A program made the translations under genes and the position numbers. Under the pieces are notes generated by a model. That model worked only from the letters and a program-made list of their open reading frames with translations, searched no databases and had not been told where the DNA came from. A DNA stretch of 35,881 nt from Clostridia bacterium. Lineage in GTDB: Bacteria; Bacillota; Clostridia; Acetivibrionales; JAFADI01. The stretch covers positions 1 to 35,881 of the forward strand of contig JAOACY010000038.1 of NCBI GenBank assembly GCA_026417615.1, given 5' to 3'. Shown here in pieces: positions 4,101 to 35,881 of this stretch (position 1 is its first letter; each line of letters opens with the position of its first letter).

Positions 4101-4170
4101 TTGATTCTGCCGCAAAAACAGCTTTTCTTGGAACAAGATGCATAAATCACTCGACGATGTTGCAGCAATT
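4101..4170 (-). repeat. Family A repeat, half copy A2
   Basis: TTGATTC at 4101 opens one outer arm in reverse orientation relative to A1. It runs through the AATCACTCGACG segment to the GCAGCAATT centre and then stops. The second half is replaced by family B sequence (see 4176-4236). Confidence 0.8.
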
Positions 4171-4175
4171 TGGAA

Positions 4176-4236
4176 AAAAAGTGATTGTTCAAAGGCATTT
4201 CAATTCCATTTAATATATTTATTGCAATTAATATAG
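4176..4236 (+). repeat. Family B repeat fragment B4 (internally deleted)
   Basis: Begins with the family B segment GTGATTGTTCAAAGGCATTT. It then jumps to the family B right end (TTCCAT...TTTAT...TAATATAG). About 145 bp of the middle is missing. It is fused directly to the broken centre of A2. Confidence 0.75.
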
Positions 4237-8082: not shown

Positions 8083-8694
8083 TTGGGTGAGGGAACAATT
8101 AAATACTGCGGGAATCCAAGGCTGGAGGCTGGAAGGATAATTTTAAGAAAGCTTGAAATTTCAGATGCGCAGGATATTTTTGAATATGCCAGGCACCCGG
8201 ACGTGGCAAGATTCGTTACATGGGATCCTCATACATCTGTAGCGGATGCGGAAAGCTTTATAAGCTGGACGCTAGAACGATATGAAAAGGATGAGGCGGG
8301 AGAATGGGGGATAGAGCTTAAGGAAACTGGCAAAATAATCGGAACAATAGGTTTTGTTGAATATGATGCCAGGAATTTCAGCGGCACCATTGGCTATGCC
8401 TTGTCAAAGGAATATTGGGGCAAGGGAATCATGACGGAGGCTGTAAAGAGAGTTATCAAATTTGCTTTTGAAGATATGAAGCTGAACAGGGTGGAAGCAG
8501 TACATGTTCCCGAGAATGAAGGCTCCGGGAGGGTGATGCAGAAAGCCGGAATGGTTTATGAGGGCTTTTTGAGACAAAGAATGTTTGCAAAGGGCAGGTT
8601 CTGGGACTTGAAGCAATACTCAATTGTAAAGGATGACATCCTGTCATTTGATGCTCAAAATGCGAGCAACTGCGAATGTGCCATGGAACATTAA
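8083..8694 (+). CDS. GNAT acetyltransferase, RimJ/RimL type
   Basis: A 203-residue acetyl-CoA-dependent N-acetyltransferase. The fold is readable from LRKLEISDAQDIFEY through the conserved SKEYWGKGIMTEA loop (about 107-119), which includes the CoA-binding Q/W-G-x-G-like turn, to NEGSGRVMQKAGM, which is typical of RimJ/RimL-like enzymes. Targets in this group include ribosomal protein N-termini and small amines. The start is a TTG at 8083 with AGGGGTG 6 nt upstream. It lies 24 nt after the ligase-like gene and overlaps no real gene. A glycan-related role, such as acetylating an amino sugar, is possible from context only. Confidence 0.85.
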   Translation: MGEGTIKYCGNPRLEAGRIILRKLEISDAQDIFEYARHPDVARFVTWDPHTSVADAESFISWTLERYEKDEAGEWGIELKETGKIIGTIGFVEYDARNFSGTIGYALSKEYWGKGIMTEAVKRVIKFAFEDMKLNRVEAVHVPENEGSGRVMQKAGMVYEGFLRQRMFAKGRFWDLKQYSIVKDDILSFDAQNASNCECAMEH

Positions 8695-10354: not shown

Positions 10355-10463
10355 TGATTCTGCTGCAAAAAACTCATGACGAATAAATCACTTAATGAAA
10401 TCGCAAGATAAGGTATTAATCATTTCATCGAAGTTTCAGAAAATAGTTCTTTAGTAGAATCAA
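10355..10463 (-). repeat. Family A repeat, copy A3 (internally rearranged)
   Basis: 109 bp, from TGATTCTGCTGCAAA at 10355 to TAGAATCAA at 10463. The outer arms match the family (CATCGAAGTTTCAGAAAAT in reverse orientation). The centre is shorter and diverged. It lies directly after dacF. Confidence 0.75.
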
Positions 10464-13503: not shown

Positions 13504-13709
13504 TGATTGTACTGCAAAAACCCATTTTCGGAAACTTTGATGGAATCACTAGCACCTTGTCTTGCAATTCCTCGCCCGCATCAATGTGACCTCCTGTCAC
13601 ATGATGCTCCAAATGTCGTCCTTTACATTTTGGCATCGGAATTGCTGCAACTTTGGTGAGTGATTTTTGCATCTCGTTTCAAGAAAAGCTGTCTTTGCAG
13701 AAGAATCAA
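13504..13709 (+). repeat. Family A repeat, full copy A4
   Basis: 206 bp. Outer ends TGATTGTACTGCAA and TTTGCAGAAGAATCAA are inverted. Inside are a hairpin GCATCA-A-TGTGAC / GTCACA-TGATGC (13578-13607) and a second one CCAAATGT / ACATTTTGG (13609-13633). The right end lies 29 bp before the start codon of the next gene. Confidence 0.9.
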
Positions 13710-15028: not shown

Positions 15029-15048
15029 TTGCACGTTTTGCATTCATT

Positions 15049-15257
15049 CTATATATGTTACGATAAATGGCTTACATTGAGGAGAAAAGTGATTATTCAA
15101 AGGCATTTCAATAGCATCGAAAAGATGAATTCGAGGGAAATGTCTTTTGGGTTCGAGCATGAATTCACTTTTCTTAAGATGTATTCCTTACGGGTCGGTG
15201 AAATGGTCTTTGCCCAATAACCTTTTTCATGTAATCTATTTATGGTATTTAATATAG
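15049..15257 (+). repeat. Family B palindromic repeat, full copy B1
   Basis: 209 bp with imperfect terminal inverted repeats (CTATAT...TTACGATAAATGGCTTACAT at the left, the reverse of ATGTAATCTATTTATGG...TAATATAG at the right). The left part folds as a nested hairpin: 15084-15092 with 15165-15173, 15099-15109 with 15137-15147, and 15115-15118 with 15124-15127. It is about 90% like B2 at 28293. It fills most of the 418-bp stretch without a gene between 14963 and 15380. Confidence 0.88.
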
Positions 15258-15294
15258 ACAAAACACACTATATCGTAATATTTGAATATTAGGA

Positions 15295-21301: not shown

Positions 21302-21326
21302 TGTTCGACCCCCATGGTTTTTATGT

Positions 21327-21410
21327 ATTCAAATGCAAAAAACCATTTTCGGAAACTTTGATGGAATCATCAGATCCTTGTTTCTAGAAAAGCTGTTTTT
21401 GCAGTTGAAT
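21327..21410 (+). repeat. Family A repeat, short copy A5
   Basis: 84 bp. The ends ATTCAAATGCAAAA and TTTTGCAGTTGAAT are inverted with one mismatch. The centre is deleted, leaving CCATTTTCGGAAACTTTGATGGAATCA from the left arm and AGAAAAGCTGTTTTTGC from the right. Confidence 0.8.
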
Positions 21411-21417
21411 TATTATT

Positions 21418-28286: not shown

Positions 28287-28292
28287 ATTATA

Positions 28293-28500
28293 CTATATAG
28301 GTTACTATAAATAGCTTACATTGAGGAGAAAAGTGATTGTTCAAAGGCATTTCAATAGCATCGAAAAGATGAATTCGAGGGAAATGTCTTTAGAGTTCGA
28401 GCATGAATTCACTTTCCTCGGATGTATTCCTTACGGGTCGGTGAAATGGCCTTTGCCCGATAACTTTTTCCATATAAGCTATTTATCGTATTTAATATAG
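28293..28500 (+). repeat. Family B palindromic repeat, full copy B2
   Basis: 208 bp from CTATATAGGTTACTATAAATAG to TTTATCGTATTTAATATAG, inverted at the ends. The same nested hairpin as B1 is kept, including AAAGGCATTTC with GAAATGTCTTT. It begins 7 nt past the ThiF-like stop and fills most of the 363-bp stretch before the MtaB-like gene. Confidence 0.9.
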
Positions 28501-28511
28501 AATCCATATTA

Positions 28512-31038: not shown

Positions 31039-31863
31039 TCATTTTCTGAATATAAATAAATACTCATGTGCGATTAACAAAAAATTGTATTTTATGCTTT
31101 GGTTTCTCCAGTATCCTGTTGAACTGCAATTATGTTGTTCCTTTATTACAATTTCCTTTAACTTAAAGCCTGTCATTAAGAATGTCTCCATTACATTGAA
31201 ACCGATAGGAATAATGTGACCCTTCCTTCGAGTATCTCCAATTAGAATAGCACAGAACTGATCTTTTTTCAGAACCCTGTAGCATTCTCTGGCAACCTTC
31301 CCCATTTCCTTTATAAAATTATCGACGTCACAGTGTGAAAGGTCTCCCTGTATATCTTCACTATACTTGATAATATTACTGTAAGGTGGATGGGTACATA
31401 TAAGATCTATGCTTTCATCGTTTATAAATTCAAGATGCCTGGCATCTCCAACATGTACTTCTGCTTCTTCACAATCTTCTCTTTCAAAGTTTAAGTTATG
31501 CAGAGTGAGGCTTACCGCTTCCGGATTTATATCAACGCCAATACCTTTTCTTTTTAAAAGCTTTGTTTCAACAAGCGTTGTACCGCTTCCTGAAAATTGG
31601 TCGAGTACAGTATCGCCTTCTTTGGAATAACGCAGAATGACATTCCTTGGTATATAAGGAGACCAATTTCCTCTGTATTTTCCGCTGTGGGTTGCCCAGT
31701 TTCCCCTTTCAGGAAAGCCCCATACAAATGAACGCTCCGATTTGTCTACAGATACATCATACCCCAGAAATGTCTTAATCTTTTGTGGCGTTGCCTGTGT
31801 CAGATACCGGTAACTATTCATGGAACAAATTTTTTTAATAAACAGCTCGGTTATCATTTCCAT
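31039..31863 (-). CDS. Site-specific DNA methyltransferase (N4-C or N6-A)
   Basis: A 274-residue SAM-dependent amino-methyltransferase. The SAM site VLDQFSGSGTT (motif I, 90-96 for FSGSGTT) is followed by GVDINPE. The catalytic motif IV is HPPY (158-161) in ICTHPPYS, with His in place of the usual Asp, Ser or Asn. The order I then IV differs from the common N6_N4_Mtase (beta) order. An N-terminal WSPYIPRNVILRYSKEGD block corresponds to the segment found before motif I in such enzymes. It starts 33 nt after the Dam-type gene and shares its transcript. No endonuclease gene follows. The target base and site cannot be predicted. Confidence 0.85.
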   Translation of the reverse strand: MEMITELFIKKICSMNSYRYLTQATPQKIKTFLGYDVSVDKSERSFVWGFPERGNWATHSGKYRGNWSPYIPRNVILRYSKEGDTVLDQFSGSGTTLVETKLLKRKGIGVDINPEAVSLTLHNLNFEREDCEEAEVHVGDARHLEFINDESIDLICTHPPYSNIIKYSEDIQGDLSHCDVDNFIKEMGKVARECYRVLKKDQFCAILIGDTRRKGHIIPIGFNVMETFLMTGFKLKEIVIKEQHNCSSTGYWRNQSIKYNFLLIAHEYLFIFRK

Positions 31864-31896
31864 AGCCGTACCGCTCCGGTTCTTCCTTTTATCCTC

Positions 31897-32829
31897 CTAT
31901 TTTTTTACACTATAGTTTGTAACAAGAATCTCACTTACTGGTCCCCTTCGTCCGCCGTTTGAATTAATTGAACGCTTAGCCTTTATCCTGTGTATATAGA
32001 AATTCCCATACAATTCATCAAAAAAATTATCGTCAGGGTTTTCATTCTTGGGATCAGAATTACTTAGCATAATCAAAGCGCCTGCATCATTCATTTCTGC
32101 AAATAAATGCGCAAGCTGCGCCTGATTCTCATCTGTAAAGTCAAACTTGCTATAGGATGTAAAGTTAGATGTAATATTAAGTGGCCGGTACGGAGGGTCA
32201 AAATAAACGAAGCTATGCCTGTCGGCATATTTAATACTCTCCCTGAAGTCACCGGCAAATATATTCACCCTCTGAAGCAAAGCACTTGCTGCATACAAAT
32301 TTTTCTCATCGCAGATAGTCGGATTTTTATAATCTCCACATGGTACATTGAAAAGCCCCGAAAGATTAACACGGTAAAGTCCGTTAAAACAGGTGCGATT
32401 TAGAAAAATAAACTGTGCTGCCCTTTCGATGTCTGGCAGAATGCTTTTGGGCCCACGTGAATTATATGCTTCTCTTACTTCATAATACATAGCTTTGCGG
32501 ACATCTTTACTCAATCTCAAATATTTAAGCTCCATGCCAGAAAGATACTCCACTACAGCATTTACATTATTTTTGATTGCAAGGTAGGAGTTGATTAAGT
32601 CTTCATTGATATCAATAATAAATGCCTCTTCAATTCTATAATTCTGCAATATTTCAAACAATACTGCCCCCCCACCCACAAAAGGCTCTATGTATCGTTT
32701 GACACTGCCTTCAATGAGCAACAAAGGGTAATAATCTTCAAAAGTGTCCAGAAGTTGTCCTTTTCCTCCAGCCCACTTAACAAAAGGTTTTGCACATTCA
32801 GTCAATTTATTGTTAATTGCTGGTTCCAA
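31897..32829 (-). CDS. dam: Dam/DpnM-family (D12 class) adenine-N6 DNA methyltransferase
   Basis: A 310-residue alpha-class N6-adenine methyltransferase. The SAM-binding WAGGKG (19-24), EPFVGGGAVLFE (48-59) with DIN (73-75), and catalytic DPPY (211-214) are in the usual order, with the target-recognition region between about 85 and 195. GATC is the common site of this class, but other sites occur. The start is a TTG at 32829 with GGAGG 10 nt upstream. It leads a two-methyltransferase unit. In type II systems such pairs serve asymmetric sites or both strands, with an endonuclease next to them. None is visible here. Confidence 0.9.
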   Translation of the reverse strand: MEPAINNKLTECAKPFVKWAGGKGQLLDTFEDYYPLLLIEGSVKRYIEPFVGGGAVLFEILQNYRIEEAFIIDINEDLINSYLAIKNNVNAVVEYLSGMELKYLRLSKDVRKAMYYEVREAYNSRGPKSILPDIERAAQFIFLNRTCFNGLYRVNLSGLFNVPCGDYKNPTICDEKNLYAASALLQRVNIFAGDFRESIKYADRHSFVYFDPPYRPLNITSNFTSYSKFDFTDENQAQLAHLFAEMNDAGALIMLSNSDPKNENPDDNFFDELYGNFYIHRIKAKRSINSNGGRRGPVSEILVTNYSVKK

Positions 32830-32917: not shown

Positions 32918-33122
32918 TGATACTAATGCATGAACCCATTTTCTGAAACTTCGATGAAATCACTAGCGACTTGTCTTGCTATTCCTCGCACGCATCAATA
33001 TGACATCCTGTCATGTGATGCTCAAAATGCCGTCCTTGGCATTTTGGCTTTGGAATTGCTGCAGCATCGTCGAGTGATTTATGCATCTTGTTCCAAGAAA
33101 AGCTGTTCTTGCATTAGTATCA
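32918..33122 (+). repeat. Family A repeat, full copy A6
   Basis: 205 bp. The terminal inverted repeats TGATACTAATGCA (32918-32930) and TGCATTAGTATCA (33110-33122) are perfect over 13 bp, but differ from other copies. Internal hairpins: GCATCA...ATGACA / TGTCAT...TGATGC around 32993-33020, and CAAAATGCC / GGCATTTTG. It fills most of the 364-bp stretch between 32830 and 33193. Confidence 0.92.
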
Positions 33123-35683: not shown

Positions 35684-35881
35684 TGATTCTCCCGCAAAAA
35701 CAGCTTTTCTTGGAACAAGATGAATTAATCACTCGACGATGTTGCAGCAATTCTGAAGCCAAAATGCCAAGGAGGGCATTTTGAGTATCATGTGACACGA
35801 CGTCACATTGATGCGTGCGAGGAATTGCAAGACAAGTCGTTAGTGATTTCATCGAAGTTTAAGAAAATGGGTTCTTGCGGC
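35684..35881 (-). repeat. Family A repeat, copy A7 (reaches the window end)
   Basis: 198 bp of a full-length copy in reverse orientation: TGATTCTCCCGCAAA, the AATCACTCGACG segment, the hairpins (GCCAAAATGCC / GGGCATTTTG and GTGAC / GTCAC), then CATCGAAGTTT and AAAATGGG. The outer end lies just past the window. Confidence 0.9.

Follow-up and report, generated by a model that had tools for sequence, protein, structure and literature searches.

At positions 32918–33122 of the window, by which we mean the whole 35,881-nt stretch of DNA analyzed, lies a 205-bp element designated A6, a full-length copy of a dispersed repeat called family A; its coordinates are exact, and its match to the Rfam family TwoAYGGAY (RF01731) places the Rfam strand on the minus strand. 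Two neighboring open reading frames, at 31039–32829, adjoin A6 and were read by eye as DNA methyltransferases. A6 forms a single imperfect hairpin from end to end, closed by a fork with two apical hairpins. Outer arms of 18 bases on each side (TGATACTAATGCATGAAC at 32918–32935, pairing in the fold with GTTCTTGCATTAGTATCA at 33105–33122) are followed by internal loops, by an inner stem (GATGAAATCACT at 32953–32964, pairing in the fold with AGTGATTTATGCATC at 33073–33087, a core common to a related genus) and by the fork. Apical hairpin 1 (32992–33021, minus strand) pairs GCATCA with TGATGC around ATGACATCCTGTCAT, and its minus-strand loop reads AGGAT, or CGA in one subfamily; apical hairpin 2 (33023–33046, minus strand) is built of CAAAATGCC and GGCATTTTG and shows the minus-strand loop AAGGAC, that is, A-N-GGA-N. 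The two internal hairpins described in an earlier, sequence-only reading of this DNA are thus present, as the apical fork of the single 205-nt hairpin, and the perfect match that it saw between the outer ends of A6 (TGATACTAATGCA/TGCATTAGTATCA) extends over 13 bp. The predicted RNA fold of A6 has an energy of −80.5 kcal/mol (z −9.6), with 0 of 200 shuffles as stable, and folding with DNA parameters gives z −8.8; the energy lies far under that of the shuffles for the RNA of either strand as well as for DNA.

Eight traces of the family occur in the window, of which three are full or near-full, four are internally deleted or truncated and one is a core fragment. Sequence comparison places a further full-length copy (A4 of the sequence-only reading) at 13504–13708, with the Rfam strand on minus, and a near-full copy, A7, at 35684–35881 (Rfam strand plus), where it runs off the contig end. 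The shortened forms are a 107-bp fork-less copy at 2374–2480 (Rfam strand minus) consisting of element positions 1–53 and 151–205, an internally deleted copy of 108 bp at 10355–10462 (plus), another of 88 bp at 21325–21412 (minus) with a 4-bp flanking repeat, and a one-arm fragment at 4102–4170 (plus) holding element positions 137–205. The core fragment, 31 bp from the region of apical hairpin 1 (8633–8663, minus strand), sits in the 3′ end of an acetyltransferase-like open reading frame, where element sequence at 8633–8694 forms the end of the frame and gives an altered C-terminus. Note also that a different dispersed repeat family occupies 15046–15258, 28290–28503 and, partly, 4168–4223, with 89–94% identity over ~210 bp.

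The draft genome from which the window comes (2.46 Mb in 127 contigs, 84% complete) yielded 40 scored full-length matches out of 153 candidates, while the pattern of the element ends matched 212 times (108 forward, 104 reverse), against three matches of the reversed control (1 and 2). The high genome count that had been predicted from the window is thus borne out, and the copy number is roughly 100 or more. Of 24 copies with long flanks, not one is located within a long open reading frame, and the orientation of the copies relative to neighboring genes is random. Many contigs (C18, C28, C41, C42, C46, C48, C78, C94 and others) start or end ~140 bases inside the element, which is therefore probably a main cause of the assembly breaks.

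The sequence-only reading was unaware that the repeat is an Rfam family. An Rfam search at the gathering threshold over the window gave no match; in a permissive search of the element alone (241 nt), the minus strand of A6 from 33097 to 32943 matched RF01731 with 38 bits and an E-value of 7e-5, below the curated cut-off of 43 bits. Other copies of the same genome score above this cut-off (47.1, 46.8, 46.2 and 44.1 bits), and copies from the related genus reach 47–63 bits (best 63.2), most of them at or above the cut-off. TwoAYGGAY is, moreover, multi-copy in many Bacillota genomes, and its copies in other Bacillota are self-complementary. Family A thus belongs to the TwoAYGGAY RNA family. A pattern scan of the contigs of other genomes, the present one left out, returned two chance matches. 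When TwoAYGGAY was described in 2010, from the human gut, gammaproteobacteria and Clostridiales, it was listed as probably RNA and not cis-regulatory (PMC2864571). A literature search for TwoAYGGAY together with transposition or repeats returned only a 2014 proposal, made from the loop motifs, that this RNA binds CsrA (PMC4333381), and no description of high-copy mobility.

Mobility was assessed on the 54 copies of the genome that retain both ends and both flanks. Exact 4-bp flanking repeats accompany 15 of them where 1.8 are expected (0/5000 shuffles), and exact duplications of 4 or 5 bp accompany 21 where 2.9 are expected. The earlier suggestion of a copying mechanism needing matched ends was right insofar as the element is mobile and makes target duplications of 4–5 bp. 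Internally deleted forms of 40–110 bp exist, several of which retain the flanking duplication; exact duplications are also found on forms of 40, 69, 72, 88 and 89 bp that lack the fork or inner stem. Terminal inverted repeats, small size, lack of an open reading frame, many copies and target site duplication are all found, and the flanking duplications, deleted forms, intergenic sites and random orientation together mean that the anatomy of family A in this genome is that of a miniature inverted-repeat transposable element (MITE). A plain multicopy sRNA gene was also considered and is rejected on account of the target duplications and the deletion derivatives. No helper transposase bordered by the element ends (TGATTCTRCYGCAARAAC) was found at the single DDE_Tnp_1 locus or at any of the six rve loci of the 84% complete genome. 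Across other genomes, where the element ends are uncertain, a general test for flanking duplication fell short of significance (5.48 against 5.07 for the mean longest shared word), mainly on account of those ends, and mobility is therefore claimed for the present genome only.

Several loci of other genomes deserve mention in their own right. In G178 (L203–L207), hairpins resembling intrinsic terminators stand on both sides of TwoAYGGAY copies, alike within a locus and unlike between loci, for example CTCTCCCAAAGGGAGAGGCT (20 bp) at L207; these flanks look as if a whole terminator had been duplicated on insertion, and at L205 the loop of the flanking hairpin looks inverted. In G004 (L191/L169), one copy is bordered immediately on either side by the 11-bp direct repeat ATAAGATAATT. 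Two inverted copies ~1.8 kb apart in G011 (L231, C262:14300–17500) enclose two open reading frames, one read by eye as an acetyltransferase and the other as a VOC-type protein, and in G013 (L045, 1909–2824) a CRISPR array (CRISPR-DR7) begins ~200 bp from a TwoAYGGAY copy.

The central claim of the sequence-only reading was that pairing, rather than sequence, is conserved. It had noted stem changes occurring in pairs, and both are seen: ATGAC/GTCAT in A6 replaces GTGAC/GTCAC of other copies, and AAATGT/ACATTT of the copy at 13504 is AAATGCC/GGCATTT in A6. A joint alignment of 22 copies of this genome and 12 of the related genus, covering 85 pairs, was compared with 500 shuffles, a control that leaves shared ancestry in. 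Changes on both sides affect 43 of the 85 pairs against 27.0 ± 2.0 after shuffling, both-side cells number 231 against 83.1, paired cells amount to 77.5% against 68.7%, and the covariation score is 0.238 against 0.111 (0/500 shuffles in each case); every slid register of the alignment is much lower. Stem changes are thus paired far more often than expected by chance, the opposite of the outcome that had been named as refuting the claim. Whereas the core is 77–80% identical between the two genera, the outer arms cannot be aligned, yet both sets pair end to end and carry the same fork. Still different outer arms are found in other genomes of the Bacillota, in some cases even among the copies of a single genome, and at the loci examined these arms are near-complementary.

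Closely related copies behave differently. A6 and its closest sister, L002, differ at 15 positions that include three compensated pairs; among six mutual-nearest pairs of copies, these three, all from A6/L002, compare with 0.33 expected if the differences are placed at random (a count of three is reached in 74 of 20,000 trials). The differences between other very close copies in the genome are mostly uncompensated. Selection on structure, as had been proposed, is thus supported for this high-copy element by covariation across genera, but it does not extend to every inserted copy: because close copies decay mostly uncompensated and the G-U/A-C asymmetry discussed below is weak, selection acts on source lineages and not on each copy.

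Whether RNA or DNA is the selected form is a separate question. Selection on the RNA of one strand only should leave that strand with many more G-U pairs than A-C mismatches. Counted on the Rfam strand, G-U and A-C number 246 to 189 (p 0.007) for family members of other genomes, a set that an RNA model had selected, 94 to 75 (p 0.17) for the present genome, and 35 to 9 for the related genus, whose copies are closely related and not independent; a calibration set of eight tRNAs was too small, at 4 to 0. The wobble test is weak, and for the part of the earlier proposal that placed selection on RNA it fails to give the large surplus of G-U that strong constraint on an RNA would produce. These counts, near parity within the genome, are among the observations compatible with a fold that transposition requires of the DNA, as a cruciform or as a single-stranded substrate, the RNA being incidental, as are the equally good folding of both strands and with DNA parameters, the random orientation to genes and the mobility of the elements. 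We nevertheless regard such a DNA-level role as unlikely, since copies that lack the fork or the inner stem carry exact flanking duplications (deletion after insertion being possible) and the conservation of unpaired loop bases is confined to one strand. The loops give a clearer answer than the wobble pairs. In loop 2, the three bases TCC (GGA in the minus-strand reading) are retained in 34/35, 35/35 and 35/35 copies of the genome and at all three positions in 16/16 copies of the related genus, while the neighboring base on each side is free to vary. Of 77 family members, 70 have two or more occurrences of the GGA-loop motif on the Rfam strand, and 68 have none on the opposite strand. As to the AYGGAY signature in both terminal loops, loop 2 reads ANGGAN in nearly all copies and loop 1 reads AGGAT, or CGA in 12 of 35 copies of the genome. 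Such a one-stranded conserved loop is left unexplained by pairing or by template switching alone.

Matched arms could in principle arise by mutation only, if template switching at quasi-palindromes homogenized them without selection and so mimicked covariation. RNA hairpins provide documented cases of this mechanism (PMC8794818), and its signature is carried by copy L098 (181 bp), a near-perfect palindrome in which one apical hairpin is gone and a perfect arm, copied from the opposite side, has been added; the outer-arm changes between A6 and L002 are, in addition, clustered. Template switching thus probably contributes to the matched arms. By itself, however, it should wipe out internal loops and leave apical loops inverted, and neither is seen: internal-loop positions are retained in both genera, GGA keeps to one strand in most of the family members counted above, and most close copies show uncompensated changes, so that we hold mutation as the sole cause to be quite improbable. 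More doubtful still is an ordinary MITE whose arms match only because both ends suit one transposase, inner pairing being inherited history, which would account for the target duplications, deletion derivatives and intergenic location, but not for the 31 both-side-changed pairs of the two-genus alignment in inner stems 2, 3 and 6, far beyond any end-binding site, nor for unrelated end sequences around the same core in each genome.

Loop 2 of the minus strand is the CsrA motif A-N-GGA-N, and the two loops of the element look like CsrA docking sites. In a phylum-wide sample, CsrA is encoded in 49 of 51 genomes with TwoAYGGAY and in 236 of 347 without it (Fisher p = 4e-6, uncorrected for phylogeny), which supports the 2014 proposal and is no proof of it; within the order, the counts are 25/29 with and 25/29 without, no difference, and the association may reflect phylogeny. 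The present genome encodes one CsrA. CsrA binding by TwoAYGGAY is plausible.

We rather favor, with its presumed steps included, the explanation that family A is a non-autonomous MITE-type element with a TwoAYGGAY structured RNA body. A transposase acting in trans on the element ends would spread it; pairing would be kept in lineages still transposing, since the folded minus-strand transcript would matter there, most likely through showing two GGA loops to CsrA; inserted copies would then decay, and occasional hairpin-templated strand switching in replication would help the arms to stay matched. Against this explanation stand the small G-U excess, the CGA of loop 1 in about a third of the genome's copies, the random gene orientation, the nil association with CsrA within the order, and the failure to find a transposase with the element ends at the DDE_Tnp_1 and rve loci. 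As a more tentative but possible extension, TwoAYGGAY would be a regulatory RNA that transposes: in the form of a MITE it would carry CsrA-type hairpin pairs through genomes, and each move would rewire or titrate a global regulator acting after transcription.

The element is thus mobile and bears an already known orphan RNA family, with its RNA role and its mover inferred, and TwoAYGGAY gains a genomic behavior, high-copy mobility. A general question also becomes open to test: is it selection or template switching that maintains perfect long stems? Jumping elements may scatter regulatory sites around genomes; if CsrA binding holds, a global RNA-binding regulator would have its sites dispersed by transposition in Clostridia, which lie outside the Gammaproteobacteria in which CsrA-sequestering sRNAs have been identified.

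Compared with known systems, family A resembles prokaryotic MITEs (PMC10969869) in being short and non-coding, with terminal inverted repeats, direct-repeat flanks and AT-rich intergenic sites, and, by analogy, probably in giving stable stem-loop transcripts; unlike them, it covaries across genera over its whole body and not at its ends alone, and carries a conserved RNA motif, and no parent insertion sequence was found at the DDE_Tnp_1 and rve loci. With the CsrA-sequestering RNAs of the CsrB/RsmZ type it shares hairpins with A-N-GGA loops, a likeness already proposed for TwoAYGGAY (PMC4333381), but it has only one or two putative sites per copy, in dispersed mobile copies, and any promoter, terminator or binding would be putative. 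With TwoAYGGAY itself (RF01731; Weinberg 2010, PMC2864571) it has in common the forked fold, the two GGA-loop hairpins on a long stem and the occurrence in Clostridia; in contrast to the family as given in Rfam, it is here a high-copy mobile repeat with 4–5 bp target duplications, and its matched outer arms extend past the Rfam model.
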